Positions 11,451-46,800 of a DNA stretch of 64,000 nt are shown in pieces. Both the position numbers and the translations under genes were made by a program. The stretch is taken from assembly GCA_004168015.1 (NCBI GenBank), contig SEYW01000010.1:1-64000 (forward strand), in the 5' to 3' direction. The notes under the pieces are model-generated. The model searched no databases, was not told the DNA's origin, and worked only from the letters and a program-made list of their open reading frames with translations. Origin of the DNA: Methylolobus aquaticus. GTDB taxonomy: Bacteria > Pseudomonadota > Gammaproteobacteria > Methylococcales > Methylococcaceae. Position 1 is the first letter of the stretch. Every line of letters begins with the position of its first letter.

Positions 11451-11885
11451 TGCGATCGCCGTCCTGAGAACTGCCATGGTCCGGACATCGTCTGTCGGCG
11501 GGCCGCCATTCCATTACCGACATTCGGAGAAAACCAAAGCGGTAGCAGAAGAAAACGCCAAGGTTCCCGGAGCGGAAGATTGTATCTCATCCGTCGAACC
11601 ACACTCAGCGCGCGAGGTATCGAGCTCATGGCGCTGCATAGCTCGCGCGCCAGCGCAAGAGCCTGCCCTATCGGCGGGCGAAGTTGCAACCCGCACATCG
11701 GCGTCGACGCCTTTTGCGTTAAACTTGTGTCCCGCTTGAGAGGTCGACGTGTCCAGGGCCGGACGGACTTCCCATCGATCATCAAGCGGCATCGAAGCTA
11801 CGTGGCCCCGCGTCGGCACCATCGCCCCTTTAGGGCGGATACCCCCTTAGACGGTCCCATCAATGCCTTCCTGTTCCTGAAGAAG
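11451..11885. other. Divergent intergenic region with a candidate -10 box
   Basis: About 430 bases between the minus-strand ligase gene and the plus-strand acidic/basic protein gene. On the minus strand a TACAAT hexamer (11579-11584) could be the -10 element of the ligase operon, but no convincing -35 is seen at the right distance. No RNA gene is recognised. Confidence 0.3.
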
Positions 11886-13076
11886 ATGCGTGAGACATTC
11901 ATTGCTCCGGCAGGCTTGCCCACCGTGCGAAGGGCTCCGTCACCCGTCCCGGATCGATATGCCGGACCGACCGTTCCCGGTCTTGCCGCCGCCCGGGCCG
12001 TGGGCCTATTGCTGCTGCTGTTGGTCGGCATCAGCGCCCTGCCCCGGTTGGCACTGGCCCAGGTCAGCCTGGGCGGAGCGATCACCGCGCCGATGCTGCT
12101 GGCGCAGTATGACGACGAGGACGACGACGAGGACGACGACGAGGACGACGACGATGGGGACTACGGGGCCGGCAGTGCATCGCAACCACGCGCCTACACG
12201 CCTCCCGCACGGAACTATCACTACGACACTTACCGCGCCCCCCAGCGCGCTGCGCCGCACCGCGCCAAACGACACCCTCCAGCCCGGAAACCGGTACATC
12301 GATCCCGATCGACGCGCCATGTTGCAGCACCCCACCGCGCCCGGGCCCATCACGCGCAGCGGCCTCATCGGACCACGCGCGGGCGGTTGACCCGGCATCG
12401 GCCTGCGCAGGCTCACGCCAGCCAGCGTCACGCGCACGCCGCCCATCGCCACGCGGGGTCTCGCGCTGCCGTACGGCCGGCATCGCACCGCAGCGCAACG
12501 CAGCATGCTGCGCGACGACACACCGCGGCGACCCACTATCGGGGTAAGGCGAGCCATCGTAAGCCGGTCGCGTCGCGATCGCATTCGAACCATCGCGCAT
12601 CGCTCAAGAAATCCGGCCAACATCGAGCGGCCCGACACGGCTCGTCTCGGCGCTACACGCAGCAAGGAAGGCATAGCCACTCGCGGCAGCGGGACAAGCG
12701 GAATGTCGCGCCACAGAGCCGAAGGGCTCACACCAAGAGCACGCGGCGCGCTGCAAGCGCGTCGAAAGCACGCGCGCGCGACCGCGCGACGGGACAGTGG
12801 CGGCCCGCGCGTCATGGTCACACGGCCGCCGGCAAGGCCAGACCCGCCGCGCGCACCAAATCCACTCGCTCGGCAAAGCCAGGCCATGGGCAGCGCCGGG
12901 GGCAGTTAAACCCATCGCCAAAATCCCGCGCCAAAGCTCCGGGCCGGCCATCGCGCCACACTGCCGCACGCAGCGGCGGCCGCAGCCCTGCAGCGGCGAA
13001 GAGCAGACGAACCCGCACGACGGCACGCTCATCGAGCCGTCCGCGGGCGAAGGGTAAACAACGCGCCCGTCGATGA
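11886..13076 (+). CDS. Putative exported protein with acidic repeat and His/Arg-rich tail
   Basis: A 396-codon frame. Residues 37-50 form a strongly hydrophobic core (AVGLLLLLLVGIS) followed by a plausible signal peptidase site after Ala58 (LALA-Q), so export is likely. Residues 76-92 are almost purely Asp/Glu, encoded by a 12-base tandem repeat. Residues from about 105 to the end are extremely rich in Arg, His, Ala, Ser and Lys, with recurring HRA/RHA patterns, and contain almost no acidic residues. No family is recognised. The same frame stays open far upstream through the antisense of the ligase gene, so openness alone is weak evidence. The signal peptide, acidic tract and uniform basic tail are the reasons to believe it. 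No close partner gene exists. Confidence 0.55.
   Translation: MRETFIAPAGLPTVRRAPSPVPDRYAGPTVPGLAAARAVGLLLLLLVGISALPRLALAQVSLGGAITAPMLLAQYDDEDDDEDDDEDDDDGDYGAGSASQPRAYTPPARNYHYDTYRAPQRAAPHRAKRHPPARKPVHRSRSTRHVAAPHRARAHHAQRPHRTTRGRLTRHRPAQAHASQRHAHAAHRHAGSRAAVRPASHRSATQHAARRHTAATHYRGKASHRKPVASRSHSNHRASLKKSGQHRAARHGSSRRYTQQGRHSHSRQRDKRNVAPQSRRAHTKSTRRAASASKARARDRATGQWRPARHGHTAAGKARPAARTKSTRSAKPGHGQRRGQLNPSPKSRAKAPGRPSRHTAARSGGRSPAAAKSRRTRTTARSSSRPRAKGKQRARR
12111..12155 (+). repeat. 12-base tandem repeat encoding an Asp/Glu tract
   Basis: The unit GACGACGAGGAC occurs three times without mismatch (12111-12146) and continues as a partial fourth copy. The unit is a multiple of three, so gain or loss of copies would change tract length without shifting the frame. 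Confidence 0.9.
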
Positions 13077-27281: not shown

Positions 27282-28161
27282 AGGTACCCTCCGCCGCCCG
27301 CGGCGATTTCTGCCAAAGGACTCCCCCCCGCCGCTCGCGCCGGCGCCGTTCGAGCAGGGGCCCCTGTATCCATTCGATGCCGGCGTCGGCGGCCAGCGCC
27401 AGGGTCTCCGCCTGTTCGATGTGCTCCAGAACGACCTTCCCGCCGAAGCCAAACATCAGACGCTGCAACAAACCAAGGTAGCGCCCTGCCCCGCTCGGCA
27501 GTAGCCGTGACGAGCGGGCAAAGTGCCGGGCGTCGAGCCGCAAATAATCAGGAGCGATACGAAAAAAGAAGTGGGCGGTCGCCTTCGACATCGGCAGTTC
27601 ATCCAGCCGCACCCCGATCCGGTAGCCCCGGCTGCGGTAATTGGCCAGACCTTGCCCCAGGCGGTGGAGGTAATCCCCCGGTTTGGCTCCGAAATCCAGA
27701 GAGGTCGACAGCACGACCCGCTCGGTGGCCAGCCCGCACTGCTCGATCAAACCCGCGAAATAGGCGCCATGGTCGCGCGGGACATTCAGGATATGGCGGG
27801 GGTCGACATCCAGCACCAGCTGCGCGGCCGGATCGTAGTTCCCGGCGACGAAGTTCAGCATGTGCAACGTGCGGCACAGGCGGTCGAAGTTGACGACCCG
27901 GATCGTGTCGGTTCCGGAGTGACTGCGGCCGCTGACCGGCACGGGTGCGGCCTGACTGACGACCGACTGCAACCGGGCTATGTACCCTACCGTCAGACCG
28001 GGGGCTTGGGTGAGGCGAATGGGATCGAGCGCGCTGGCCAGATCGACATCGCAGAAGCGCGCCGTAACGCGGCCGCGCGCCGACCTCAGCAAGGCATCGG
28101 CGACACCCGTGTCCGCCGTCATGCGATCGTTGCAGGCGCGAACGAATGTGTTGAGCGACAT
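27265..28161 (-). CDS. Degenerate EAL-domain protein
   Basis: A 298-residue protein that follows the EAL phosphodiesterase fold but lacks its catalytic motifs. The region [21 protein letters not shown] (residues 179-199) corresponds to the loop that normally carries DDFG, here [31 protein letters not shown] (244-270) corresponds to the VAEGVE...QGY/F block. The EAL tripeptide itself is not found. It therefore probably does not hydrolyse cyclic di-GMP and may bind it or a partner protein. It lies between the Mop-domain genes and cysT, in the operon and overlapping cysT, so a link to sulfate uptake is inferred. Confidence 0.8.
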
Positions 28162-28174
28162 AACCTTGACCTCC

Positions 28175-28426
28175 TCAGTCCAAGTAAGGACCTGCGCCGC
28201 GCGTGCGGTCGTAGAGTCGGGCCACCGCGACCTCGCTGGACTTCACGAGGGCCAGAACCTGGTCGCCCACCTTCAGGCCCAGCGATTCAAGTGAACTGCT
28301 CGTGATGACCGAGGTTACGATGCCGCCTTCCACCTGGACTTCGACCTCGGACACGACGGGACCGAGATTGATCGCGCGGATGCGGCCACGGAACTGATTG
28401 GGTGATGTCAGCGCGACGATGCTCAT
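28175..28426 (-). CDS. Mop/TOBE-domain protein, second copy
   Basis: An 83-residue protein consisting of one Mop (molybdopterin-binding-like, TOBE superfamily) domain: SPNQFRGRIRAINLG, VTSVITSSSLESLGLKVGDQ and ALVKSSEVAVAR are the typical blocks. Such small proteins oligomerise and bind molybdate or related oxyanions. Its start overlaps the stop of an upstream paralogue by four bases. Placement in a sulfate operon suggests sulfate or molybdate sensing or buffering, which the sequence alone cannot distinguish. Confidence 0.9.
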   Translation of the reverse strand: MSIVALTSPNQFRGRIRAINLGPVVSEVEVQVEGGIVTSVITSSSLESLGLKVGDQVLALVKSSEVAVARLYDRTRGAGPYLD

Positions 28427-28668
28427 ACGATATCTCCGGTGGGTTTTGCCTCGAGCTTGGCCAGACTGACCTCGGTCGCCTTGAACAGCGCCAGCACGGC
28501 CACGCCGGGTAATAACTCCAGTTCCTTAGCGGAACTCGTCGTAATCACCGAGGTGACGGGCCCGGCTGCCGTCTCGATGACGATCTCGGAAACCACGCCA
28601 CCGGGAACGAGCTTCTTGATGGTTCCGCGGAACTGATTCTTGGCGTTGACGGCCACGATGGAACTCAT
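28423..28668 (-). CDS. Mop/TOBE-domain protein, first copy
   Basis: An 81-residue Mop-domain protein (KNQFRGTIKKLVPGGVVSEI, VTSVITTSSAKELELLPGV, ALFKATEVSLAKLE), clearly paralogous to the gene directly downstream. The open frame extends upstream, but ATG 28668 (MSSIVAVNAKNQF) matches its paralogue. It lies 31 bases after the sulfate-binding protein gene. Single-domain Mop proteins usually form hexamers around oxyanion ligands. Confidence 0.9.
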   Translation of the reverse strand: MSSIVAVNAKNQFRGTIKKLVPGGVVSEIVIETAAGPVTSVITTSSAKELELLPGVAVLALFKATEVSLAKLEAKPTGDIV

Positions 28669-28699
28669 GAGGGGATACTCCGATGCTAAGGCGGCGCGC

Positions 28700-29725
28700 T
28701 CAGCGCGTCGCGAAGATTTGATCGAACACCGCGCCATCGGCGAAGTGCTTCTTATGAGCGGCCGCCCAGCCACCGAAGACCGGGTCGCTGATGGGTACCA
28801 GTTCCAGCCGGGGAAACTCGGCAGAATGTTTTGTGGCGACCGCAGGATCACGCGGGCGATAGTGATGGCGGGCCGCGATGTCCTGCCCTTCCTTGCTGTA
28901 AAGGTATTCCAGATAGGCCTTCGCCACCTCTTCCGTACCGTGGTTGCCGGCCACCTTGTCGACCACCGTGACCGAGGGTTCAGCCAAAACGCTGAACGAT
29001 GGCGTAACGATCTCGAACTTGTCTGGCCCTGATTCCTTGAGCACCAGATGCGCCTCGTTTTCCCAGGTGATCAGGACATCGCCGATCTCTCGCTCGACAA
29101 AGGACACGGTCGAGCCGCGCGCGCCGGTATCGAGGACTGCCGCATTCTTGTACAGGCGAGATACGAACTCCTTCGCTGAAGACTCGTCACCGCCCTTCTT
29201 CTTGATCGCGTAGCCCCATGCCGCCAGATAGTTCCAGCGGGCACCGCCGGAAGTTTTCGGGTTCGGCGTCACCACCGAAACGTCCGGTTTGGCCAGGTCA
29301 TCCCAGTCCTTGATTCCCTTGGGATTACCCTTCCGGACCACGAAAACCATCGTCGACGTATACGGCGCACTGTTTTGCGGGAGCCGCTCCTGCCACTTCT
29401 CGGGGATCAACCTGCCTTTCTCGTAAAGCTGATCCACGTCATAGGCCAGTGCCAGCGTCACAACATCGGCATCGAGCCCGTCGATGACGGCCCTTGCCTG
29501 CTTGCCGCTGCCACCATGTGACTGCTTTACGGAGACCGTATCGCCGGTCTTGGCTTTCCAGTATTTGGCGAAGACCGCGTTGTACTCCTGATACAGCTCA
29601 CGCGTAGGGTCGTAGGACACGTTGAGCAGCGTGACATCCTCGCCCGCATGGGAAAAGGCGGCGGGCAGCAGGGTCGCGTTAAACGCAAAAATCGCGTGAA
29701 TCAGCCGAGGGGTTAACCAATGCAT
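28700..29725 (-). CDS. sbp: Periplasmic sulfate-binding protein
   Basis: A 341-residue solute-binding protein with an N-terminal signal peptide ending around AFSHAGEDV. Family blocks are [63 protein letters not shown] and [12 protein letters not shown], all typical of Sbp/CysP. It delivers sulfate to CysTWA. It lies between a porin gene and the Mop genes, with short gaps consistent with one transcript. Confidence 0.95.
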
Positions 29726-29767
29726 GAGTAAGCTCCGTCAATTCGTTGAGTCGGGTTGCGGTCGGAC

Positions 29768-31432
29768 CTAAAAGTTGACCTGTACGCGCGTCTGCCAGAC
29801 TTTTTCCGTCTGGAGACTCCGCACGTAGGGCAGCAGCACACCGCTGTTGCTGAAAGTTCCGGCGCCGTCGTTGTAGGACGTCTGCGAGTAATCGAACATC
29901 AGCTTGTAGTTCGGGTTGAGCCACCAGTTGACGCCGAGCGCCCAGGTGGTCGCTTTCGCTACAGCGCTGCGCGGATCCGCGAAGGGATAAATCGGCTTTT
30001 CGGCCGTGCCGGTGTTCTCGAAAACGTCATTGTCGAAATTGATGGTCGAGAAACGCGCTGCGGCCTGGAACGCGCCCCAATGGCCCTCGAAGGGATCGAA
30101 GGGGTGACGCGGCTTGATGCCCTGGTTCAGAAAGACGTTGTCTTCCCCCGTCAGCACGTACGAGACGGTCGCATTCCAGGCTTGGCTGGTTTCGTTGGTC
30201 TTTGCCACGGCATGGCTCTGGCCGTTGACCACGGTTTGGTTCTCCAGATCCTGATCGGACAGGGCGTACTCGCCGACAAACTGGAACGGTCCGTAGATCC
30301 AGTACATCTGCGGGTAGACGCGGTAAGCGGTGCCATCCGATCTGGCGTTCGAGTTGTAGCGAAAGATGGTGTTCAGGCCCGGGCTCTGAAAACTCGATAG
30401 CTGATCGTCATTCGGTTGCCCCCAGGTCCCGGCCACACCCAGACCAAGTCCCTCCAGAGGTTCGATGCCGCTGTGCAGGAAGGGGTGCGAAAATATCCTG
30501 GCCTGAAGCTCTTTCGAATCGTTCTGGTCGCTGTCGATGCTGCCGTTATTGCGCGATCCGTCGAAGATGCCGAACTGGTAACTGAAGAAGTCCGGATATT
30601 GATACATCGGGAAATTCCCACCATAGGTGCGATTTCGCTCGAGCTTGCTGAAATCCGTTCCGTGGTCGGGGCGGTCGAACTCGCCGTGCAACATGACACC
30701 CACGTCGCGATTGGGCGCGAGTTGTGTCGGGAAGGCACGTTCGATGAACGGCAAGGCACTCGCACTCTGCAAACGCTCGAGACTAACCGGTGCCTTGAAT
30801 TTGCCGGCGGCCAGACTTGCGTGGCGAAAGTAGCGAAAGTCGGTGTAGGCGTCGAACAAACGGAAGTTGCCACCGGCAAAATCCGGCATGATGCGATAGT
30901 CGAAATACTTCCACACCGTACCCTCGATGATCGGGCGCACCCGACGCATGTAGAACTTGTCGGCATACGAGTCGCCGTTGGTGTTGCCCGCCTGCTCGGT
31001 ATCGTCCATGAAATAACTGCCGTCGGCCTGGATCAGCGCCCGCAGGTACATAATGAAGTTTTCGTCCTGTGAGATGACCTTGAGGCCCTGTGTGCCGAGT
31101 TCCTCGCTCTTCGGGAACTTGGTCAGCGCGGCTTTCTGGGTCTCTTCGTCGACTTCGACCTTGCGCTCCAACACGTTGACCTTTTGTTTGAGCTGCTTGA
31201 CCTCATCGGCACTGGCTGCGGCAGCCGTTCCCGCCGCACCGGTGGCCGGAGTCGCTGCCGGGGACGGTGCCTTCGCCGCTTCGGATTCTTCCAGACGCTT
31301 CTCGAGGAGTAGCAGGCGCCGTTCCAAGGCTCGGTATTGGGCATCCGACACCATGGCTTCGGCGGAGTCGACACCGCCCACCAGGCCAGCGACGGCGATC
31401 GCCAGCACGGGAGCTTTTGTTGGTTGTTGCAT
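29768..31432 (-). CDS. Phosphate-selective porin O/P-like outer-membrane protein
   Basis: A 554-residue beta-barrel protein with a signal peptide (cleavage near SAEA), a coiled-coil segment at about residues 28-100 rich in Leu, Lys and Glu, and a barrel domain of the OprO/OprP family (YADKFYMRRVRPIIEGTVWK, RDVGVMLHGEF). It ends in Phe (VQVNF), the usual BAM recognition residue. OprP-like channels take up oxyanions. Its position just upstream of sbp suggests it serves sulfate here. Confidence 0.88.
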   Translation of the reverse strand: MQQPTKAPVLAIAVAGLVGGVDSAEAMVSDAQYRALERRLLLLEKRLEESEAAKAPSPAATPATGAAGTAAAASADEVKQLKQKVNVLERKVEVDEETQKAALTKFPKSEELGTQGLKVISQDENFIMYLRALIQADGSYFMDDTEQAGNTNGDSYADKFYMRRVRPIIEGTVWKYFDYRIMPDFAGGNFRLFDAYTDFRYFRHASLAAGKFKAPVSLERLQSASALPFIERAFPTQLAPNRDVGVMLHGEFDRPDHGTDFSKLERNRTYGGNFPMYQYPDFFSYQFGIFDGSRNNGSIDSDQNDSKELQARIFSHPFLHSGIEPLEGLGLGVAGTWGQPNDDQLSSFQSPGLNTIFRYNSNARSDGTAYRVYPQMYWIYGPFQFVGEYALSDQDLENQTVVNGQSHAVAKTNETSQAWNATVSYVLTGEDNVFLNQGIKPRHPFDPFEGHWGAFQAAARFSTINFDNDVFENTGTAEKPIYPFADPRSAVAKATTWALGVNWWLNPNYKLMFDYSQTSYNDGAGTFSNSGVLLPYVRSLQTEKVWQTRVQVNF

Positions 31433-31656
31433 GAAGGCTCTCCCTTTTTTGAAAAGAGAACCTCCGGTGATCCGGTCAGTTCAGGGGGTAACTGTAGGTT
31501 CTACCGTCAGCCTCCCGTTGGGCGGGTCGGCGGGGAGAATTGGCTGGGCCTTGGTCAACGGCCCCGCTTCAAACGTTCGCGCTCCGGTGAGGAGCAACGA
31601 GGGGAAATGACAAAACGGCGCGACGGTGAGGCTTCGTTTTGCGCTGCGCCCAAGCG

Positions 31657-31848
31657 TCAGGGACTGGTCGCGGTTTGGTTGGGGAGCCGAAATTTCTCAC
31701 GGCGCTCGATTTGCACGACCTTGCCGTCGTGCACGGTGATTTCTACGGCGCCGTACTGCAGACCATCGAGAGCGTCGAGTATGCGACCTTGAAGGGGTTG
31801 GGAGGAACGGGCGTCCGGTTTGTTCGCGGGCGTCGTGGGTTTCTGCAT
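31657..31848 (-). CDS. YezD family protein (DUF2292)
   Basis: A 63-residue protein whose core ILDALDGLQYGAVEITVHDG followed by KVVQIERREKFRL is the YezD/DUF2292 signature. Members often sit with sulfur-assimilation genes, and this one heads the sulfate operon. It is probably a cytosolic beta-strand-rich protein; its biochemical role is not established. A well-spaced promoter lies about 45 bases upstream. Confidence 0.85.
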   Translation of the reverse strand: MQKPTTPANKPDARSSQPLQGRILDALDGLQYGAVEITVHDGKVVQIERREKFRLPNQTATSP

Positions 31849-31893
31849 GCAGCCTGGCCTCGGTGGTTCAAGGAATGAAATGCTTCGGGGACA

Positions 31894-31952
31894 ATGCTAG
31901 ATGAGGTGTCCAATAACGACAAATAATAAAAACGCATTTCCTAATCGCGTTT
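31894..31952 (-). promoter_or_regulatory. Promoter and palindrome upstream of yezD and the sulfate operon
   Basis: On the minus strand TTGTCG (31917-31922) and TAGCAT (31894-31899) are separated by 17 bases, a good sigma-70 layout, with a predicted start near 31887. Further upstream AAACGC (31930-31935) and GCGTTT (31947-31952) form an interrupted palindrome centred about 54 bases before that start, a usual place for a LysR-type activator such as CysB. Confidence 0.5.
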
Positions 31953-32070
31953 CGTAATAATAAGCCGGCTGGCATGCGCTATGCGTGATTCGGGCAGGTC
32001 CAACCGCCCACGACGTTCCCGCGCTCAACGCCGTTTGACAGCGCCCCCCGGCCCGGCTAGGTTCCCCTGC

Positions 32071-33042
32071 ATGGGCCTCCGCTTCCACACCGCTCGCCAT
32101 GCACTCGCCCCTTGGGCCCGCCGCTTGAACAGCCGCAGCGTACGCACGCTCCTGGTTATCGTGGTCATGGCGGCCTTGTTGTGGAAGATCGATCGCGCGC
32201 AATTGCGCGACAGTCTGAGCGACTTTGATCCCTTGATAGGCGCCCTGTTGCTCATCGTCAATCTGGTGTTGACCGGTCTCTTCGCGTGGCGTTGGTGCAC
32301 GATCGCCCGCGCGCTGGGCGTCGCGGCTCCTTTTCGGCTGTTCGCGCGCGCGATCTGGGTCAGCCAATGTGTGAGCGAACTCGGCCCGGCGCTCATCGTT
32401 GGTGAGTTGGCTCGCTTTCAGCAACTCCGACGCCATGCCGACAACTGGTTCTTGGCTGTTAGCCAGATTCTGGACCGGCTTTCCGGCAAGGTGATATTGC
32501 TGCTGATCGTCGCAATGTTGACACCGCTGTATCTGGACTGGCTGGATTCCTTCCCCGCGCAGCAGATCGGATTCCTGATGCTGGTGCTGATCACCGGGAT
32601 CACGCTCGTGGCCGTACTGCTAAGGCGCTTTTGGCCTATTGCCCGCCTGCATCCGCGGCGGGTGATCGCACTATGCAATCCATTCAAAGCTCCGGGACAT
32701 TACGGCTTGTCGGTGATCATTCAGCTCTTGCTCGCCAGCAATCTCGCCCTTAGTGCCTTGGGGATCGGCGCGTCGGAAACGATCGCCAGCAGGGTCTTCC
32801 TGCTCGGCCCACTCGTACTGCTGGGCGTGGGTGCGGTACCGGGTCTGGTTTCGGATTGGGGCAAGCGGGAAGCCCTGGCCATCGTGATCCTCGCGCCTTC
32901 GGGGCTGACGACGGAACAACGCCTTGCCGTATCGCTGATTTTTGGCTCGGCCCACTTGCTCGCTGTCCTGCCGGCGGCACTGTTGTTGTGGTCCCGCCGC
33001 CCACCGCCAGTGGCCGGGGAACCGCTCGACGGATCCCCTTAG
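32071..33042 (+). CDS. UPF0104 / lysylphosphatidylglycerol synthase TM-region-like protein
   Basis: A 323-residue polytopic membrane protein with about eight hydrophobic segments. It starts with a basic cytoplasmic end and has the family-like block FARAIWVSQCVSELGPALIVGE, followed by a polar patch and further helices (GALLLIVNLVLTGLFAWRW precedes it). Such proteins are flippase-like and often work with glycosyltransferases or lipid carriers. ATG 32071 is chosen because the upstream extension from 31981 is Arg/Pro-rich and unlike the family. No enzyme gene lies beside it, so the substrate is unknown. Confidence 0.75.
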   Translation: MGLRFHTARHALAPWARRLNSRSVRTLLVIVVMAALLWKIDRAQLRDSLSDFDPLIGALLLIVNLVLTGLFAWRWCTIARALGVAAPFRLFARAIWVSQCVSELGPALIVGELARFQQLRRHADNWFLAVSQILDRLSGKVILLLIVAMLTPLYLDWLDSFPAQQIGFLMLVLITGITLVAVLLRRFWPIARLHPRRVIALCNPFKAPGHYGLSVIIQLLLASNLALSALGIGASETIASRVFLLGPLVLLGVGAVPGLVSDWGKREALAIVILAPSGLTTEQRLAVSLIFGSAHLLAVLPAALLLWSRRPPPVAGEPLDGSP

Positions 33043-33100
33043 TGAGCCCAGGAAAGGCGGTAAATCTGCGTCACGACAATGCCCGGATCGACACGGGAGG

Positions 33101-34456
33101 TCAGCGGTTCCGCTTCCCAGCGGTGCATGCCGCGGTGGGGCGAAAATACTCCCTGGTCTCGCTCCTGATGACACCCGACAGCAGCAGCAATCCGATGAGG
33201 TTGGGCACCGCCATCATGCCGTTCATCAGGTCCGAAAAGCTCCATACCAGTTCCAGCTTAGTCATCGCCCCCACCATGATCATGGAGACGAACACGACCC
33301 GGTAAGGTTTGATTCCCCGCGGTCCGACGAGATACTCGATGGCCTTCTCTCCATAGTAGTTCCAGCCGATCAGGGTCGAGTAGCCGAACAGCGAAATCCC
33401 GAGGGTGACGATCAGGCCGCCCGCCACGCCGAGCGTCTCCGCGAAGCTCGCCGCCGTCAGATCCGCCGCACTCACCCCGGCTTTCCACGCATCCGCAGTC
33501 AGGATGATCAGCGCGGTCATGGAACAGACAACCAGGGTATCGATGAAGGTCTGAGTCATGCTGACCAGCGCCTGTTCCACCGGTGAATGGCTTCTTGCCG
33601 CGGCTGCGGCGATCGGCGCGGAGCCGAGTCCCGACTCATTCGAGAACACCCCGCGCGCGACTCCGTAACGGATTGCCGCCGCCACACCGGCACCCGCCAT
33701 GCCGCCCTCGCCGGCCGCGGGCGTGAATGCATGACGAAAGATCAAGGCGAACGCGCCCGGAAGCTCGTCCCAGTTCATGGCTAGCACGACCAAGGCGGCA
33801 CCGACGTAGCCCACGATCATGAAGGGAACCAGAATCGAGGTGAAGCGTCCGATGGACTTGACGCCTCCCAGAATCACCAGGCCCGTCAGCAGCGTCATGG
33901 CGACACCACTTTGCCAATCGCGAAGGCCAAACGACGAAGAGAGCGCCGCGGCGACCGAATTCGCCTGGGTCATGTTGCCGATACCAAAGGTCGCCAGGGC
34001 CGTGAAGACGGCAAAGAGCCAGCCGAGACGGGGCAGTCCTGCGCCTTTCGCGAGGTAGTACATCGGCCCGCCGCGCATTCCATGCGGGCCCTTCTCCCGA
34101 TACTTCACGGCCAGGACAGCCTCGGAGTACTTCGTCGCCATACCGACCAACCCGGTCATCCACATCCAGAACACGGCACCGGGGCCACCGAGCGTGATGG
34201 CCGTCGCGACACCGACGATGTTCCCGATCCCCACCGTGGCGGCCAGCGCCGTCATCAAAGCCGCAAAATGGCTGATATCGCCGTCCGCGCCATGTTCCTT
34301 GCGCCAGATCAGTCTCAATGCCAGGGACAAGCGCCGGAACTGTAATCCCTTTAAGATCATCGTGAGATAGCAACCCGTCCCAACCAAGGCGACCAGCATC
34401 GGCGCACCCCAAATCCAGCTCGACAGCAATGTGATGGCCGCTTCGACTTTTTCCAT
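33101..34456 (-). CDS. Sodium/alanine (glycine) symporter, AGCS family
   Basis: A 451-residue transporter with about ten to eleven helices. AGCS landmarks are [65 protein letters not shown] and [20 protein letters not shown]. It imports alanine or glycine with Na+ or H+. It stands alone and converges on the upstream membrane protein gene. Alanine use also appears further on, in an alanine dehydrogenase gene at 58.5 kb, but the two are not linked. Confidence 0.95.
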
Positions 34457-34857
34457 GATCCAGTGCTTTCAGGTCAATTTGGTGGGAAACCGAATGGGTT
34501 ACGGCGTCCTCGGCCGATGCTGTTGCAGCGTTCGCGGCAAGGCCGCTCTACGAAAATTGGCTTAAACCGACGACGCTGAAGTTTACCAGAGCGTGTCAAA
34601 GCGGCAGGCAGCGGTGTGAGATGCGAAGGGGTTTGGGTCGGAAGCGCGGAAAGCCGGTGGTCGAGCAAACGACACCTGGAAGGTTTAAGCGAGTAACAGC
34701 GCCCGCGGAAGATCGGAGGGGAGGGGGTGACCCTCCGCGGGCTGGCTCAATGCCGTTGCCGTCCATCGAGCCTGCTGCCAGCCCCCGGGGACTCCGCCTC
34801 TCGGGGACGATTGAAGTCTAGGAGACGACAAGCTAACCAGCTCGCTATTAAAAATAT
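34457..34857. other. Intergenic region with a long GC-rich hairpin
   Basis: About 400 bases upstream of the AGCS gene and downstream of the sigma-factor remnant. It contains a nine-pair perfect stem (GCCCGCGGA at 34701-34709 with TCCGCGGGC at 34734-34742) and a competing inner stem (GAGGG 34721-34725 with CCCTC 34731-34735). No coding frame is convincing. Confidence 0.4.
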
Positions 34858-35035
34858 TCAATGGAACAGCAGGTCGGCGTCGTAGCCTTGTTCCTCGGCC
34901 CGTTGCTTCAACTCTTTCAGGGCGGCGTTCTGCAATTGCCGGACGCGCTCGCGCGGCAGGCAGCGCAGAGGCCCGAGCGCGATTGACCTGAACGTCCAGA
35001 CTGGCAGCACAGCCATCCGAGGGGGGCCAAGGGAC
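34858..35035 (-). pseudogene. C-terminal remnant of a sigma-70 family (RpoS-like) gene
   Basis: The minus-strand peptide PRERVRQLQNAALKELKQ, then RAEEQGYDADLLFH and a TGA at 34858-34860, matches the recognition helix and C-terminal tail of sigma region 4.2 (typical RERVRQIQ...LR). Just upstream the frame gives TFRSIALG with about four extra residues before PRERV. The piece SDGCAASLDVQ, resembling region 4.1, appears only in another frame, so a shift is needed. The rest of a sigma gene, some 250 residues, is absent. RpoS is the best guess because of the tail ending in LF. Confidence 0.55.
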
Positions 35036-35279
35036 CACACAGGCAAGCATTTGAGGCATGCTCCCGTGTCGTCCGAGCCGGCGCCCCGCCCAGCCGGTCG
35101 CAAGCACGCTTCTCGGCGATCGCACTGCGCCAGAGTGGCAGTGGCGGAGTCGGATCGGAACGGAGAGGTGGCGTCTGGGGTGAAGAGAGCTCTCGCAATC
35201 TAGCAGCGCCTTGCGAGTGTCGCTGAAGCCTGCCTGCGGCGCGGCGCCGCCACCCCTGGTTTGCGGGACAGCAAGGAAT

Positions 35280-35366
35280 TGGTGCCTCGGGCCGGAATCG
35301 AACCGGCACGGGTGTTACCCCGCGGGATTTTAAGTCCCGTGTGTCTACCTGTTCCACCACCGAGGC
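35280..35366 (-). tRNA. tRNA-Leu (TAA)
   Basis: A class II tRNA on the minus strand. The acceptor stem GCCTCGG pairs with CCGAGGC, and the CCA end is encoded (35280-35282). The anticodon arm CGGGA-CTTAAAA-TCCCG gives anticodon TAA. A long variable arm follows, and the T-arm has GGTTCGATTCC. A TATTCT box upstream (35384-35389) may be its -10. Confidence 0.95.
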
Positions 35367-35492
35367 CATGGTGATCGTCGACTAGAATATCAGATAAGCC
35401 GGGTAGGGGATCTCCATGAGCATTCGCTCATCCCACCGCTGCCCGTGTGACCCCACTTTCGCGAACCCGACTCCCCGGGAGTAACGCAAATC

Positions 35493-36185
35493 ATGCGCCC
35501 CTGTTCGGTATCCCGATCGAACCTCGATCCCATCAAATCCATAGCGTTCCGTCGCCGGTGTCGACTGCCGCTCTGGCTAGCGTTCTTGCTTCTCACCGCC
35601 TGCGGAGACGATGGACCAAGACTCCCGGTACTGTCCCCGGATGCTTCGATCATCGCATTCGGCGACAGCCTTACGTCGGGGGTTGGTGCAGCACCAGGCC
35701 AGGATTATCCAAGCCAGCTCGCGCGCCTAACCGGCTTCCGGGTGACAAACGCCGGCGTCCCCATGGAGGTGAGTGCCGAGGGCCTGGCTCGACTGCCAGC
35801 GCTGCTGGATGAGAATCCCGCCAATCTTCTGATCCTCATTCACGGCGGGAATGACTTCCTGCGCAACCTGCCGCAGGAGCAGACGGCTGCGAATCTCACG
35901 GCAATGATTGCCGCGGCCCGAAGCCGCGGGATCTCGGTCGTGATGCTAGGCGTACCGCGACCAGCCTTGTTCGGCTTGTCGAGTGCCGAATTCTACGACG
36001 AACTGGCAGAGTCGACCGGCACACCGATCGACGGCGAAACGCTGCCGGCTATTTTGAGTGACAATTCCCTTAAGTCGGATTTGGTGCACCCCAACGACGA
36101 AGGCTATCGCCGGCTTGCCGAAGCGACGGCCAGCCTGTTACGGGCCAGCGGGGCCTGGAGCGGCACTGTTTATTCAAACGACTGA
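35493..36185 (+). CDS. GDSL/SGNH hydrolase lipoprotein (TesA-like esterase)
   Basis: A 230-residue SGNH hydrolase. Block I is FGDSLTSG with the nucleophile Ser; block III is HGGNDFLRN; block V is the His of LVHPNDEGY with its preceding Asp. The N-terminus has a hydrophobic segment ending in a lipobox (LLTAC), so it is probably an exported lipoprotein. Relatives are arylesterases or lysophospholipases like TesA. A GGGAGT lies about 12 bases before ATG 35493. It is single and unlinked to neighbours. Confidence 0.88.
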   Translation: MRPCSVSRSNLDPIKSIAFRRRCRLPLWLAFLLLTACGDDGPRLPVLSPDASIIAFGDSLTSGVGAAPGQDYPSQLARLTGFRVTNAGVPMEVSAEGLARLPALLDENPANLLILIHGGNDFLRNLPQEQTAANLTAMIAAARSRGISVVMLGVPRPALFGLSSAEFYDELAESTGTPIDGETLPAILSDNSLKSDLVHPNDEGYRRLAEATASLLRASGAWSGTVYSND

Positions 36186-36460
36186 CGCCGATCCCAGTCC
36201 GCCTGGGTGCGGACCGCAGGGTGCATGCAACGCACCACACACACGCCGACAATTCCGGACCAGGGGCCATGCGGGTAGTGGGCTTTGCAGTCAATGACTT
36301 TCCGCCGCCTGGATGTTCTCGCGCTCCAGACCCGCCTCCCCGCCTCAGGCAATTGCGGCATACGTGAGCGAGGAAAGTGCCAGGGGTCCGCCAGGCAAAC
36401 CCCACCTCGCCCGAGAGTCACGAAGTCCGTGGGGGGTCAGAGCGATCGCTCTGAATCAAT

Positions 36461-36553
36461 TGGCGGAGAGAGAGGGATTCGAACCCTCGATGGGCGTTTT
36501 GTGCCCATACTCCCTTAGCAGGGGAGCGCCTTCAGCCGCTCGGCCATCTCTCC
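36461..36553 (-). tRNA. tRNA-Ser (GCT)
   Basis: A class II tRNA on the minus strand. The acceptor GGAGAGA pairs with TCTCTCC and the CCA end is encoded. The anticodon arm CTCCC-CTGCTAA-GGGAG gives anticodon GCT. A long variable arm and the T-arm GGTTCGAATCC follow. The csrA gene is just upstream, as in many gammaproteobacteria. Confidence 0.95.
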
Positions 36554-36575
36554 GAAGTTTGGTTCGACTAGCAGG

Positions 36576-36785
36576 CTAGTCGTTGTCCGGCGCAGACCGG
36601 TCGTGTGCTCCCTGCGCTTGCTGTTCCTTTTTTATCCGTTCATAAATTTCTTCACGGTGAACGGAAACCTCTTTCGGGGCGTTGACTCCGATGCGGACTT
36701 GGTTACCTTTCACTCCGAGGACGGTGACCGTTACATCGTCGCCGATCATTAACGTCTCCCCAACCCTACGAGTCAAAATCAACAT
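36576..36785 (-). CDS. csrA: Carbon storage regulator CsrA
   Basis: CsrA is an RNA-binding dimer that controls translation of many mRNAs by binding GGA loops. The 69-residue protein begins with the invariant [18 protein letters not shown] and has the [10 protein letters not shown] helix; Leu4, Arg6 and Arg44 regions important for RNA binding are intact. AAGGAAG precedes the ATG. It follows lysC and precedes tRNA-Ser, the common gammaproteobacterial order. A candidate extended -10 lies in the gap from lysC. Confidence 0.97.
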
Positions 36786-36876
36786 AGTTACTTCCTTTTC
36801 CGCCTCAACCCAACATCGCTGCAGGCACCAACCCTCTGGAGCTAAACTGCCACGCTTCAACCGCCTGGGAAAGTGC

Positions 36877-36885
36877 ATGTTAGCA
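36877..36885 (-). promoter_or_regulatory. Candidate extended -10 element for csrA
   Basis: TG followed by one base and then TAACAT (36877-36882) on the minus strand, about 90 bases before the csrA ATG. There is no clear -35 at the expected spacing, so this would be an extended -10 promoter. Confidence 0.3.
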
Positions 36886-36918
36886 AATTTTCGCTACCCG
36901 AGAAACAAGTTACTTCGG

Positions 36919-38148
36919 CTAGTCCGCATGAGGCGAGTTTTCGAGTTGAAATGCTTCATGCAGCGCACGCACCGCCAATTCCAGGTACCGTTCATCGACA
37001 ACCACTGAGATCTTGATCTCCGACGTGGAGATCATTCGAATATTGATCCCCTCGTTGGCCAAGGTTTCAAACATTTTGCTGGCGATACCCGCATGCGAAC
37101 GCATGCCGACTCCGACGAGCGAAATCTTGACGATATGGGTGTCGCCCGTCACTTCCCGAGCACCCAACTCGCGTTTACAGTCTTCCAGCACAGCCAGCGC
37201 TCGGCTGTAGTCATTCCGGTTGACCGTGAAGGTGAAGTCGGTCGTTTTGTCCCCCGCCACATTTTGGACAATCATATCGACCTCAATGTTCGCAGCCGCG
37301 ACCGGGCCCAGTATTGCGTGGGCTACGCCCGGACGGTCGGGCACGCCCTGAACCGTCAGCTTGGCTTCGTCGCGATTGAACGCGATTCCGGAGATCAATG
37401 CTTTCTCCAACGCTTGTTCCTCATAAGTGATCAGCGTTCCGGGCCCCTCCACGAAGCTGGAGAGCACCCGCAACGCCACGTTGTACTTGCCCGCGAACTC
37501 GACGGACCGGATCTGCAGCACCTTCGATCCCAGGCTGGCCATCTCGAGCATTTCCTCGAAGGTGATCCTGTCCAATCGACGCGCACGTGGCTCGATCCGC
37601 GGATCGGTGGTGTAGACACCGTCCACGTCGGTATAGATCAGACATTCATCAGCCCTCAGGGCGGCCGCCAACGCGACCGCCGTCGTATCCGAGCCTCCGC
37701 GCCCCAGGGTGGTGATATCCCCGGCTTCGGTCACGCCCTGAAAGCCGGCGACGACCACCACCCGCCCCGCGGACAGATCCTGCCGGAGCCGGTCGGTGTC
37801 GATATCGAGGATCCGGGCCTTGGTGTGAGCCTCATCGGTGACGATCCTGACCTGTCCTCCCGTGTACGAGGCGGCTGGACAACCGCGCGCCTGCAGCGCG
37901 ATGCTCAGCAGCGCGATGGTCACCTGTTCCCCCGTGGAGAGCAGAACGTCCATCTCCCGCGGATCCGGCGAACCGTCGATTTCATGAGCCAGAGCGACGA
38001 GCCGATTCGTTTCACCGCTCATCGCTGACACGACCACAACCACCTGTTCGCCGCGCTCACGCGCCGCAATGACCTTATTCGCGACTTCTTTGATCCGCTC
38101 GACCGATCCGACCGAGGTCCCACCGTATTTGTGAACGTACAGCGCCAT
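36919..38148 (-). CDS. lysC: Aspartate kinase
   Basis: LysC phosphorylates aspartate, the first step to lysine, threonine, methionine and diaminopimelate. The 409-residue protein starts with the kinase motif YVHKYGGTSVGSV, has GFQGVTEAGDITTLGRGGSD in the catalytic domain and two C-terminal ACT domains that bind feedback inhibitors. ATG 38148 is the family start; the frame is open upstream toward alaS. It lies 28 bases after alaS, consistent with co-transcription, while csrA has its own candidate promoter. Confidence 0.96.
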   Translation of the reverse strand: MALYVHKYGGTSVGSVERIKEVANKVIAARERGEQVVVVVSAMSGETNRLVALAHEIDGSPDPREMDVLLSTGEQVTIALLSIALQARGCPAASYTGGQVRIVTDEAHTKARILDIDTDRLRQDLSAGRVVVVAGFQGVTEAGDITTLGRGGSDTTAVALAAALRADECLIYTDVDGVYTTDPRIEPRARRLDRITFEEMLEMASLGSKVLQIRSVEFAGKYNVALRVLSSFVEGPGTLITYEEQALEKALISGIAFNRDEAKLTVQGVPDRPGVAHAILGPVAAANIEVDMIVQNVAGDKTTDFTFTVNRNDYSRALAVLEDCKRELGAREVTGDTHIVKISLVGVGMRSHAGIASKMFETLANEGINIRMISTSEIKISVVVDERYLELAVRALHEAFQLENSPHAD

Positions 38149-38176
38149 CTTTGCTTGAATCTTTGTTGGTTGCCCG

Positions 38177-40777
<2,601 letters not shown>

Positions 40778-40784
40778 ACGCGAT

Positions 40785-41257
40785 TCAGTGGTTTGGCAAA
40801 TCGGAAAAGGAGTCGCGCGGCAAAGGCGATTGCATCACGCGACGTATCTGTTCGCTGCTGAACCCGCGCTGTAGCAAGTAGCGCCAGCGCGATTGCAGGT
40901 CCCGGTCGGAAGTGGGTGGGCCGGCCCCGAAACGCTTTCGGTAGAGCCGTTCGAGCACGGCGTCCCAGTCGATGTCCTCGTCGGGGATTACGGAAGGTTC
41001 CACACCCATCTGGCGGAGTTCACTGACGACGCGCATCCGCCCATAACCCTGCTCGGCGCGCCTGCGCACGATCATCGCCGCGAAGCGGCTGTCATCGAGC
41101 AAGCCCTCGGCGGAAAGCGACGCGAGTACCGTGCCCACGCTGTCCGCGGAAAAGCCCTTGGCTCGCAGCCGCTGCGCCAATTCCGCCCGAGCGTAGTCAC
41201 GACGCGCCAGATACCGCAGGCTGACTGCACGGATCTCGGCCGCGACTGTATCGGATG

Positions 41258-41261
<4 letters not shown>
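40785..41261 (-). CDS. recX: Regulatory protein RecX
   Basis: RecX binds RecA filaments and inhibits their activity. The 158-residue protein shows the tandem three-helix repeats ([43 protein letters not shown]). In this frame there is no ATG, GTG or TTG between the expected N-terminus and ATG 41441, which would place 60 residues inside recA. The best candidate is CTG at 41259-41261, which overlaps the recA TGA as CTGA. This implies coupling by a rare start codon. The gene ends eight bases before alaS. Confidence 0.85.
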
Positions 41262-42307
<1,046 letters not shown>

Positions 42308-42338
42308 TTACCTGCATCCACATCAGTAAACGGGGTCA

Positions 42339-42911
42339 TTATTTCATACTGCCGCCAGCGGGAGTAGATTGCAGACGCCAGCGCCGGAGCACACAGTACT
42401 CGGACCCCGACGGGCGGAGCGTGGATTCCACCAGGACGACCGACTCGACCGGCCAGATGATCGTCGGGGTCGCGGGCGGAAACGGCACGGTTAGGCATAC
42501 CTTGCGACCCAGCGTGACATGCGGTATCGGCGCCAAAGCTTCCGGGTTTGCGGAGCCGCGGTCGAGCGCCGCGCGCAGACTTGCCTCGAGCTCGCCCCAC
42601 GCAGAAGGCACGACACTGGGCTCCATCCACAGCAGCTGGCGTCGGCGCCGATATCGCAGCTGATTCAGTTGCAGCGTGAAGGACGCAGCGTCGGGTTCCC
42701 TCTGATGGCAAAGATACTCCAGCTGCGCCGGGGATACGGAGCCTAGGAACCGCAGCGTGATGTGGAAGTTCTCGGCGCGAACCCAGCGCGCTTGCGCGTG
42801 CTGGGCCAACTCCCGGACGCTGGCCTCGAGCGCGGCGCGAACGCCGTCGCTAGGCCAGAGGGCGTAGAAGACCCGGTGCCGAGCTCGGGCTGCGTCAGCC
42901 TCGCAGGGCAT
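42339..42911 (-). CDS. thpR: RNA 2',3'-cyclic phosphodiesterase (2H family)
   Basis: A 190-residue 2H phosphoesterase, formerly called LigT. The two HxT motifs are His50-Thr52 (FHITLRFLG) and His131-Thr133 (PHVTLGR). It hydrolyses cyclic 2',3' RNA ends. ATG 42911 lies within the pncC 3' end and the genes overlap by 17 bases. It is located between pncC and recA, a known gammaproteobacterial arrangement. Confidence 0.92.
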   Translation of the reverse strand: MPCEADAARARHRVFYALWPSDGVRAALEASVRELAQHAQARWVRAENFHITLRFLGSVSPAQLEYLCHQREPDAASFTLQLNQLRYRRRRQLLWMEPSVVPSAWGELEASLRAALDRGSANPEALAPIPHVTLGRKVCLTVPFPPATPTIIWPVESVVLVESTLRPSGSEYCVLRRWRLQSTPAGGSMK

Positions 42912-43386
42912 CGAGCAGGCCTCGCAATGCCGCCTCGATCGACTGCCGGCGTACAGCGGCGCGGTCGCCCGCGAAGTGGTAACAGCGCGAGCAGCCCTGA
43001 CCGCGTGCCGAGCTCCAATGGATCCAGACCGTCCCGACCGGCTTGTCAGCCGATCCGCCGGTCGGTCCCGCGATCCCACTGATCGCGATGGCCCAATCGG
43101 CTCCGAGGCGTGCCAACGCACCTCGCGCCATCGCCGCCACGGTTTCCTCACTGACTGCGCCGCATCGAACCAGTACCTCCGGCGCAACCCCCAGCAGTTC
43201 CGTCTTGGCGTGGTTGCTGTAGGTCACGAAGGCGGCTTCAAACCAGGCGGATGCGCCCGCGATCGCGGTGAGGGTCTCGGCTATGCCGCCTCCGGTACAT
43301 GACTCGGCCGTAATCAGCGTATCGCCACGCTTCGCGAGCGCCGCGCCCACCTCGCCTGCCAGCCCGATCAGCGCTTCATCGTTCAT
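42895..43386 (-). CDS. pncC: Nicotinamide-nucleotide amidohydrolase (CinA C-terminal domain)
   Basis: PncC deamidates NMN to nicotinate mononucleotide in NAD salvage. The 163-residue protein is a stand-alone CinA-C domain with [31 protein letters not shown] and [20 protein letters not shown]. The longer CinA COG1058 domain is absent, as is usual in gammaproteobacteria. It is divergent from mutS, with only 44 bases between. Confidence 0.95.
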
Positions 43387-43430
43387 GTAAACTGCCCCGT
43401 CTGCCGAACCTCATTGTATCCCAGCCTCCG

Positions 43431-46013
43431 ATGTCCACCTCCTCGTCCCCTGCCGCAATGCCGGCGCATACGCCGATGATGCAGCAGTATCTCGGGCTCA
43501 AGGCCGATTTCCCGAACACCCTGCTGTTCTATCGGATGGGCGACTTCTACGAGCTCTTCTTCGACGATGCCCGCTGTGTCGCCGCGCTGCTGGACATCAC
43601 GCTGACCTCCCGTGGCGAATCCGGAGGTCAACGCGTAGCGATGGCCGGAATCCCGTATCATGCGGCGGAAACCTATCTGGCGCGACTCCTCAAGGCCGGA
43701 AAATCAGTCGCGATCTGCGAGCAAGTGGGCGAATCACTGCGCGGCAAGGGCCCGATGGAGCGCAAAGTCGTGCGGATCCTGACGCCCGGCACCGTTACCG
43801 ACGAGTCGCTGCTGGATGAACGCAGGGACAACCTGCTCGCCGCGATCAACTGCGGCAGCGGCGATCGCATCGGGCTGGCTACCCTCGAGCTGACGGCCGG
43901 CCGCTTCACCGTGCAGGAACTGCTGTCCTCCGAGGCCCTGGCGGCCGAACTGGAACGTCTCCATCCCGCCGAGATACTGGTCGCCGAACATTCGGCGATC
44001 GCGGAGTCGCTCGCGGCCGAACATGCGCTCACACCCCGCGCCCCGTGGCATTTCGAACCCGCCAGTGGCGAGCAATTGCTGCTACGGCAATTCGGCACCC
44101 GCGACCTGTGTGGCTTCGGCTGTGAGGGCCTGCCGGCCGCCGTCGGCGCCGCCGGTGCGCTGCTCCAGTATTTGCAGGAGACACAGCGCTCGGCGCTGAC
44201 CCATCTGCGAGGACTACGCGTGGAGTCCAGCGAGGACATGATCGTGCTCGATGCGGCGACGCGCCGAAATCTGGAACTCGATACGCATCCCTCGGGACGG
44301 GCCGACCTGACCCTGCTCGGCGTACTCGACCATACGGTTACGGCGATGGGTAGCCGGATGCTCCGGCGCTGGCTGCAGCGGCCGCTGCGGGCGCGCGACC
44401 GCCTTGAGGCACGCTACGACGCGATCGATACGCTACTTCGTTCGGAAGCGCTCGACGCCCTGAGAGAACACCTGCGCTCCGTCGCGGATATCGAACGCAT
44501 CGCTGCACGCATCGCACTGCTGTCGGCCCGACCGCGGGATCTCGCGCTGCTGCGTCAAACGCTACAGTCACTGCCCCAGTTGCGTCAGGCTTTGGCACTG
44601 CTGGAACCCAGCCCGCTGCTCGCCGATCTCTACGAGCGCGTCGGCGACCACGCCGAGGTGTGCGGCCTCCTGGAGCGGGCGATCATCGCGGAGCCCCCGG
44701 TTCTGATCCGGGATGGCGGAGTCATGGCACCGGGCTACGACGCGGAACTGGACGGCTTGCGTAACCTGAGCGAGAACGCCGACGGCATGCTGGTCGACTT
44801 GGAAACCCGCGAACGGGAACGGTCGGGCATCGGTTCACTGCGGATCAACTTCAACCGGGTGCACGGGTTCTACATCGAGCTGTCCCGCGCGCAGGCCGAG
44901 CGCGCCCCGGATCACTTCCAGCGGCGCCAGACCTTGAAGAACGCCGAGCGTTTCACGACTCCCGAGCTGCGCGCGTTCGAAACGCAGGTCCTCGGCGCAC
45001 GCGAACGCGCACTGGCCTTTGAACGGGCGCTGTACGAGGCCTTGTTGGGGTCGCTCAGCGAACATGTCGCCGCGTTGCAGCGCTGTGCCGATGCACTGGC
45101 GGAGCTGGACGTCATCGGAACCCTCGCGGAGCGCGCAGTCGCCCTGAATTATCAGCGCCCGACGCTGGTGCCGGGTAGCAGGCTCCACATCGTGGATGGT
45201 CGACACCCAGTCGTCGAGCGAACCCTGCAACTTCCTTTCACCCCCAACGACCTGCATCTGAACGGAGAACGCCGGATGCTGATCATCACGGGTCCGAACA
45301 TGGGGGGCAAATCGACCTACATGCGTCAGGCCGCACTGATCAGCCTGCTGGCCCACATCGGCAGCTTCGTACCCGCAGAAAGAGCCGAGATCGGCACCAT
45401 CGACCGCATCTTCACCCGCATTGGGGCAGCGGACGATCTCGCCACGGGACGCTCGACCTTCATGGTCGAGATGACCGAGACGGCGCAAATCCTGCACAAC
45501 GCGACGGAACACAGCCTCGTCCTGATGGATGAAGTCGGCCGTGGCACGAGCACCTTCGACGGGTTGTCGCTTGCCTGGTCCGTCGCGCTAACCCTGGCGC
45601 GCGAAACGAAGAGCCTCACCCTATTCGCCACGCATTACTTCGAGCTGACGACCCTGCCGGAGCAGAGCGATGCGATCCGCAATGTGCACCTCGACGCGCT
45701 CGAACATGGCGACCGCATCGTCTTCCTACATCAAGTCAAGGAGGGTCCGGCTAGCCAGAGCTATGGATTACAGGTCGCCGCGCTCGCCGGCGTGCCGCGG
45801 CGCGTCATCGACGAAGCGCGGTCGGTGCTTCGCCGCCTGGAGCGCCAGGCCTGTGAGCAGTCCATGACCGACGATGGACCACGACAGATGGATCTGTTCG
45901 TCGATGGCCGCAATGATCGCCTGGCCGAACGCGTGAAGTCACTGGACCCGGACGCGATGACGCCGCGCGAGGCGCTGGAGGTCCTATATCAGATCAAGGA
46001 ATTGACGGACTGA
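43431..46013 (+). CDS. mutS: DNA mismatch repair protein MutS
   Basis: MutS recognises mismatches and recruits MutL. The 860-residue protein has the mismatch-binding FxE motif in [15 protein letters not shown], the connector and lever domains, and the ATPase with Walker [15 protein letters not shown], followed by [12 protein letters not shown] and the THYFEL motif. A C-terminal segment ([15 protein letters not shown]) resembles the tetramerisation end. ATG 43431 is used; an internal ATG at 43458 is also possible because no strong ribosome site distinguishes them. Confidence 0.98.
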
Positions 46014-46074
46014 TCGACGGGGCCGTGCCATAAGGCTAAGCGCCGCGGCACGCGGTGACCGGGGCTCCGGATGA

Positions 46075-46800
46075 TCAACCCTTCTTTTCGTCGCCCAACA
46101 ACTGCAGCAACTGGGCCGCGGGTACGTAACCGGGGAGCACACTGCCTTTTTCGGTCACGATCATCGGCGTTCCGGACGCGCCCATCGCGGTCCCCAGCGC
46201 CATGTGTTTGGTCACCGGGTTGTCGCAGTTCTTCTCCGGCAGGGCCTCCCCCTTCTTGGCCTGTGTCAGCGCCTGGGTTCGGTTGTCGGCGCACCAGACG
46301 CTGACGGCCTTGTTGTAGGAATCCGAGCCTTCGCCCGCCCTCGGGTAGAACAGGTAGCGAACTTCGATACCGGCGTCGAGGTACTGTTTGATCTCGGAGT
46401 GGAGCTTGCGGCAGTAGCCGCAGTCGATATCGGTGAACACGTACGCGACATGCTTGGTCTTCTGGGGCTTGAAGACGATCATGTTGGCAGCGCCGACCTT
46501 GTTCAACGCGCCCACTCGAGCCTGCGCCAAGCGCGGCTCGGTTAAGTCCTGACGCGAATTCACGTCCACCAGGGAGCCCTGGATCAGATAGGCGCCGTCT
46601 TCCGACACATAGAACAGCTTGGGACCGTAGAGAACCTCGTAGAGGCCCTTCAACTTGGTGGGCTGTATCGAATCCGGCTCCATTCCGGGCAAGGCCCTCT
46701 GCAGCGCATCGCGGATGGCCTTTTCATCGGCGAGTGCCACGGTCGGGCCGGTGAGAACCACGGCTAAGGCCGCCAGAGCAAGCGAAAGAAACTGTTTCAT
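46075..46800 (-). CDS. dsbC: Thiol:disulfide interchange protein DsbC
   Basis: DsbC is a periplasmic disulfide isomerase. The 241-residue protein has a signal peptide (cleavage near ALA-DE), an N-terminal dimerisation domain and a thioredoxin domain with Cys127-Gly-Tyr-Cys130 and the cis-Pro loop SGTPMIV. A second cysteine pair (WCADNRT and NCDNP) is typical. It is downstream of rseP, converging on mutS. In E. coli dsbC is next to recJ and xerD, so the position is different here. Confidence 0.96.
   Translation of the reverse strand: MKQFLSLALAALAVVLTGPTVALADEKAIRDALQRALPGMEPDSIQPTKLKGLYEVLYGPKLFYVSEDGAYLIQGSLVDVNSRQDLTEPRLAQARVGALNKVGAANMIVFKPQKTKHVAYVFTDIDCGYCRKLHSEIKQYLDAGIEVRYLFYPRAGEGSDSYNKAVSVWCADNRTQALTQAKKGEALPEKNCDNPVTKHMALGTAMGASGTPMIVTEKGSVLPGYVPAAQLLQLLGDEKKG

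Follow-up and report, generated by a model that had tools for sequence, protein, structure and literature searches.

The window, meaning the whole stretch of 64,000 nucleotides analysed, carries a detached 105-bp 3′ end of an rpoS gene at 34857-34961 on the minus strand; it is a real rpoS fragment, short and old, and ordinary in kind. The reading considered best, with a probability of roughly 70%, is that the fragment is a leftover of an rpoS-like gene of the type found on contig C7 of a related genome, already in place before the two species split, in a lineage which has duplicated rpoS repeatedly, and that it is mostly inert. The source would be the rpoS paralogue that the sister species still has intact on C7, and the fragment would have been deposited in the spacer between a tRNA-Leu and a symporter gene ahead of the split; either the gene end alone was copied, or a full copy at this site lost its remainder, with other copies from the repeated duplications persisting elsewhere. 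Both the inertness and the manner of deposition are what we infer from the comparisons below; the fragment itself yields no sigma factor. On its own such a fragment is ordinary, and it warns that a truncated copy should not be read as loss of a regulator when the bin is incomplete; the presence of four or more rpoS-like genes in a single genome, with similarity that halts at the stop codon, would be relevant to the study of how stress sigma factors multiply.

The fragment and its borders

G000 denotes the window's own genome (3.39 Mb in 42 contigs, 89.5% complete) and G002 the nearest relative compared, from the same genus (4.8 Mb, rated 100% complete). The features of the locus are as follows.

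33101..34456, minus strand: intact ORF, which we take from its sequence to be Na+/alanine symporter-like (AGCS), the neighbour on the other side (ORF list; dS 0.091 and dN 0.007 against G002)
34689..34830, no strand assigned: G+C-rich, strongly folding spacer block 3′ of the fragment, unrelated to rpoS (G002 alignment, fold z-score)
34857..34961, minus strand: detached rpoS 3′ end (DNA match to the C7 gene; TIGR02394 positions 254-285)
34962..35279, no strand assigned: spacer 5′ of the fragment up to the tRNA-Leu, with no detectable rpoS body (shuffle tests non-significant)
35280..35366, minus strand: tRNA-Leu (TAA), which bounds the spacer (ARAGORN and Rfam)

The 105 bp comprise 33 final codons and the TGA stop, with one base past the stop and two bases ahead of the first whole codon; 34858-34959 on the minus strand translates to LPRERVRQLQNAALKELKQRAEEQGYDADLLFH, followed by the stop. 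This ORF matches the NCBIfam RpoS model TIGR02394 at positions 254-285 of 285 (E 3.7e-5, 23.4 bits; E 3.7e-4 in the whole-genome profile search), and a PDB search with its residues ranks RpoS chains first (best E 0.0037). A match to Pfam Sigma70_r4 covers positions 32-50 of 50 and falls below the cut-off (E 0.0049); the fragment starts inside region 4, and keeps the end of the recognition helix and the C-terminal tail. Set against RpoS (sigma-38, sigma-70 group 2; TIGR02394 / NF004207), its 33 residues correspond to the model's final 32 positions, but regions 1.2, 2, 3 and most of region 4 are lacking. It is therefore not a member of the RpoS family by the curated cut-off (23.4 against 378.7 bits), nor by possession of regions 2, 3 and 4, of which only the sub-cut-off stretch of Sigma70_r4 is present; as a remnant it aligns significantly and co-linearly with a portion of an intact rpoS, over 105 bp at 93% identity (E 7.6e-40). 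An earlier note had read 34858-35035 as the remnant of an RpoS-like gene, with the recognition helix and C-terminal tail on the minus strand; the remnant and its strand are borne out by the profile match, whose absence the note had named as refuting, and by the alignment to an intact relative, which it had proposed as a check, although only the end of the helix is present and the interval holds for the coding part, 34858-34959, and not for 34962-35035.

From 34962-35035 onward to 35279 no frame contains recognisable sigma-factor sequence. Against the RpoS body the upstream sequence scored at most 34 as protein, which 79 of 300 shuffles reached, and its DNA score against rpoS was reached by 30 of 300; since no upstream similarity rises above chance, the rest of the gene is missing and not frame-shifted. 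The suggestion that the upstream parts were shifted or lost thus stands for loss only, and a frameshifted rpoS pseudogene with a decayed body upstream, leaving traces in other frames, was rejected on the protein shuffles. There is also no space for a gene body, because the tRNA-Leu occupies 35280-35366. On the downstream side a first shuffle test against rpoS gave 11 of 300, a weak hint against a sharp border; a second, restricted to the 120 bases directly 3′ of the stop, gave 491 of 500 for the window, and the corresponding test of the fragment in G002 gave 224 of 500. As judged from these comparisons, no sequence outside 34857-34961 appears clearly like the C7 rpoS.

The counterpart and the parent gene in a second species

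The fragment is identical at 98 of 105 positions (93%) to G002 C7:137387-137491, where an intact rpoS of 332 aa ends; with the ends of the C1 and C15 rpoS genes of that genome it shares 77% identity, and it has no DNA match to the rpoS gene on C20. Window positions 27529-46497 align with G002 contig C2 as a single alignment of 19 kb at 95% identity, within which the fragment recurs at the corresponding position of G002. The shared fragment and context mean that the fragment is older than the species split, and they exclude an assembly error, which the earlier note had listed as a possible cause. The fragmentation of G000 at its rpoS copies would lend some colour to an rpoS end having been put into the contig by assembly or binning, but the separate relative carries the fragment in its own 19-kb context with four differences, and this synteny refutes an artefact, whose probability is close to nil.

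Among the 38 family genomes, G000 counted, the fragment is present in two, both of the same genus, and absent from the other 36; no fragment was found in G001, also of this genus and 72% complete. A wider contig search returned RpoS relatives at approximately 49-55% identity, titled Gammaproteobacteria or unplaced Pseudomonadota (the best 80 of at least 561 matches). As a fragment the sequence occurs in one copy per genome. Gene conversion holding fragment and parent alike is unsupported in G002, as its fragment differs from its parent at 7 of 105 sites and from the window's fragment at 4 of 105. The spacer was also considered as a repeat family and rejected; the fragment and its G002 counterpart aside, only short and weak matches to it occur at other places in G000, G001 and G002.

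Copies of rpoS in the genus

The rpoS-like genes of G002 number four, all full-length, and lie on contigs C1, C15, C7 and C20 (loci L052, L053, L054 and L055); they score 358.5, 358.2, 352.6 and 351.4 bits against TIGR02394. Even these intact genes lie under the curated cut-off of 378.7 bits, and Pfam scans of two parent-type genes show regions 1.2, 2, 3 and 4, as in RpoS. In a tree of 32 rows, built from the C-terminal 300 residues of every open frame with one row per genome except for G002, the four form one clade with long branches (support 100/98) against 28 relatives; L047, which is without a C-terminal end, L049, which represents the gene already included as L052, and hits to which no locus was assigned were left out. 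The C1 and C15 copies (L052:6162-7224 and L053:6213-7275) are 95.3% identical over 1063 bp, from approximately 140 bp 5′ of the start codon to 2 bp past the stop, and the 120 bases 3′ of the stop are unrelated. In three pairs the similarity extends no more than 2 bp from the stop: C1 and C15, the G000 contigs C17 and C22, and the fragment and C7. This pattern would fit either an rpoS that moves as a unit bordered near the stop, or gene conversion that keeps old dispersed copies alike.

Attachment sites of integrative elements are often the 3′ ends of genes near tRNA genes, and the 105 bp could be a site left by an element that integrates at rpoS 3′ ends: the duplicated piece is an exact gene 3′ end close to a tRNA gene, and similarity between rpoS copies halts at the stop codon. 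This origin is considered very unlikely, as inspection by eye of the ORFs listed around the rpoS genes on C7 and C20 showed no integrase, each genome has one copy of the fragment as such, and searches of 50,697 phage and 72,556 plasmid records gave no match. The same searches led to rejection of phage-borne or plasmid-borne spread. Literature searches listed no report of an isolated rpoS 3′ fragment, nor of two rpoS genes. The leftover of a duplicated gene resembles ordinary bacterial gene fragments and pseudogenes, which likewise are truncated copies lying in a spacer, with intact ones at other sites. For Acidithiobacillia, the available excerpt of PMC12194929 describes RpoS groups RpoS_1 to RpoS_5; as in the present genus, the lineages covered by that excerpt have more than one group of RpoS-like genes, whereas here two copies are 95% identical over approximately 1.06 kb, and one type exists in addition as an isolated tail.

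The earlier note had supposed that, if this was the only rpoS, the lineage had lost its general stress sigma factor, and had suggested a search of the genome for another copy. A TIGR02394 profile search of the G000 assembly finds no full-length rpoS; the ends of rpoS genes are nevertheless present on three contigs. C17 and C22 (L010 and L011, from base 1) start inside rpoS 3′ ends; their first 77 bases are identical, there are two differences in the first 100, and they diverge at the stop. A shared 77-base prefix is the residue that a commonly used assembler leaves at an unresolved repeat (k = 77). From within the rpoS gene onward C17 matches the C1 locus of G002 over 6.9 kb with 94.4% identity, and C30 is 93% identical over 1.7 kb to the stretch preceding the C1 rpoS; the last 87 bases of C30 correspond to the 5′ part of the rpoS unit, and the contig ends there. 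For the upstream side of the second copy (G002 C15) no G000 contig was found past the same C30 end, and the rpoS bodies between the contig ends are absent from the bin. Such contig ends are expected where near-identical copies collapse in assembly, and from them at least two further rpoS copies seem to exist in G000, cut by the assembler.

The parent locus itself is less well covered, as only 11150-13001 of the 14-kb stretch around the G002 C7 gene matches G000 well, on C28 at 99%, and the remainder gives short or weak matches; the C20 locus has weak matches only. The C7-type parent may be missing from G000. The bin also has no match to TIGR02393 of rpoD strength (best 1.9e-13), despite its completeness rating of 89.5%, and no match of rpoH strength among five TIGR02394 hits; absences from this bin are therefore weak evidence. 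That the lineage's only rpoS stood here and decayed would agree with the lack of a full-length rpoS and of the C7-type locus in the G000 assembly, but the contigs that start or end in rpoS-like genes, the correspondence of C17 to the site of an intact G002 rpoS, the four genes of G002 and the incompleteness of a bin without an rpoD-strength match all tell against it; this history is highly improbable, and the loss of the general stress sigma factor from the lineage is not supported.

Rate of change in the fragment

Slow change is the one feature which a dead fragment explains poorly, and in evolving more slowly than its own spacer the fragment differs from ordinary gene fragments and pseudogenes. 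Between G000 and G002 it is changed at 4 of 105 sites, against 135 of 713 ungapped sites in the remaining spacer (34457-35279); none of 505 other 105-base segments of the spacer has four differences or fewer (minimum 6, at 34690). Identity to G002 is 58% in the nearest 26 bases 3′ of the fragment, 85% in the 73 bp 5′ of it and 72% in the next 240 bases 5′. Synonymous divergence is 0.09-0.10 on the left side (symporter, porin) and 0.17-0.21 on the right (tesA, lysC, alaS), with 0.032 in one left-hand ORF and none in csrA. The probability of four or fewer changes in the fragment is thus 0.035 at a neutral rate of 0.09 (symporter), 1.5e-6 at 0.2 (lysC, tesA) and 0.75 at 0.032; the outcome hinges on the neutral rate assumed, and the evidence, which is suggestive of constraint on the fragment, is therefore short of decisive.

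One source of such constraint could be a functional small element, either a short RNA or a peptide of approximately 50 residues with an RpoS tail, which would compete with or titrate a factor that acts on rpoS mRNA or RpoS. The conservation of the fragment above spacer level would fit this, as would the 33-codon frame and stop, unbroken in both species, an in-frame start read by eye at an aligned position 5′ of the fragment (GTG in the window, TTG in G002; candidate ORF of approximately 50 residues), and the conserved, strongly folding block directly 3′. However, the 16 codons directly 5′ of the fragment are unconstrained (dN 0.197, dS 0.167), and because of this and of a 1-bp indel between the two species the upstream reading frame is not kept. 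The fragment folds no better than its shuffles (z 0.63), a consensus scan gives no promoter-like or terminator-like site, and 36 of the 38 family genomes do without it. Of its four changes since the split two are synonymous, and two fall in a single codon and alter the residue (E in the window and T in G002, where the parent has A). A functional element is considered unlikely; the proposal that a lone RpoS tail is kept by selection as a small RNA or peptide mimicking the end of rpoS mRNA or of RpoS, while rpoS copies spread as stop-bounded units, is rather improbable.

The mostly inert leftover preferred here lies beside a block, 34689-34830, with 130 of 142 aligned bases identical in G002; the fold z-score of 34670-34850 on the minus strand is -2.79, and the block is possibly a terminator or leader RNA. 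A known structured RNA in the spacer was rejected, as only two tRNAs reach the gathering score in an Rfam search over 34000-36700, and no family does so for the spacer or the block. To the left, window positions 31433-34456 are 97-99% identical to G002, and lysC and alaS a few kb away 94-95%; the left part looks as if it had been exchanged between the species.
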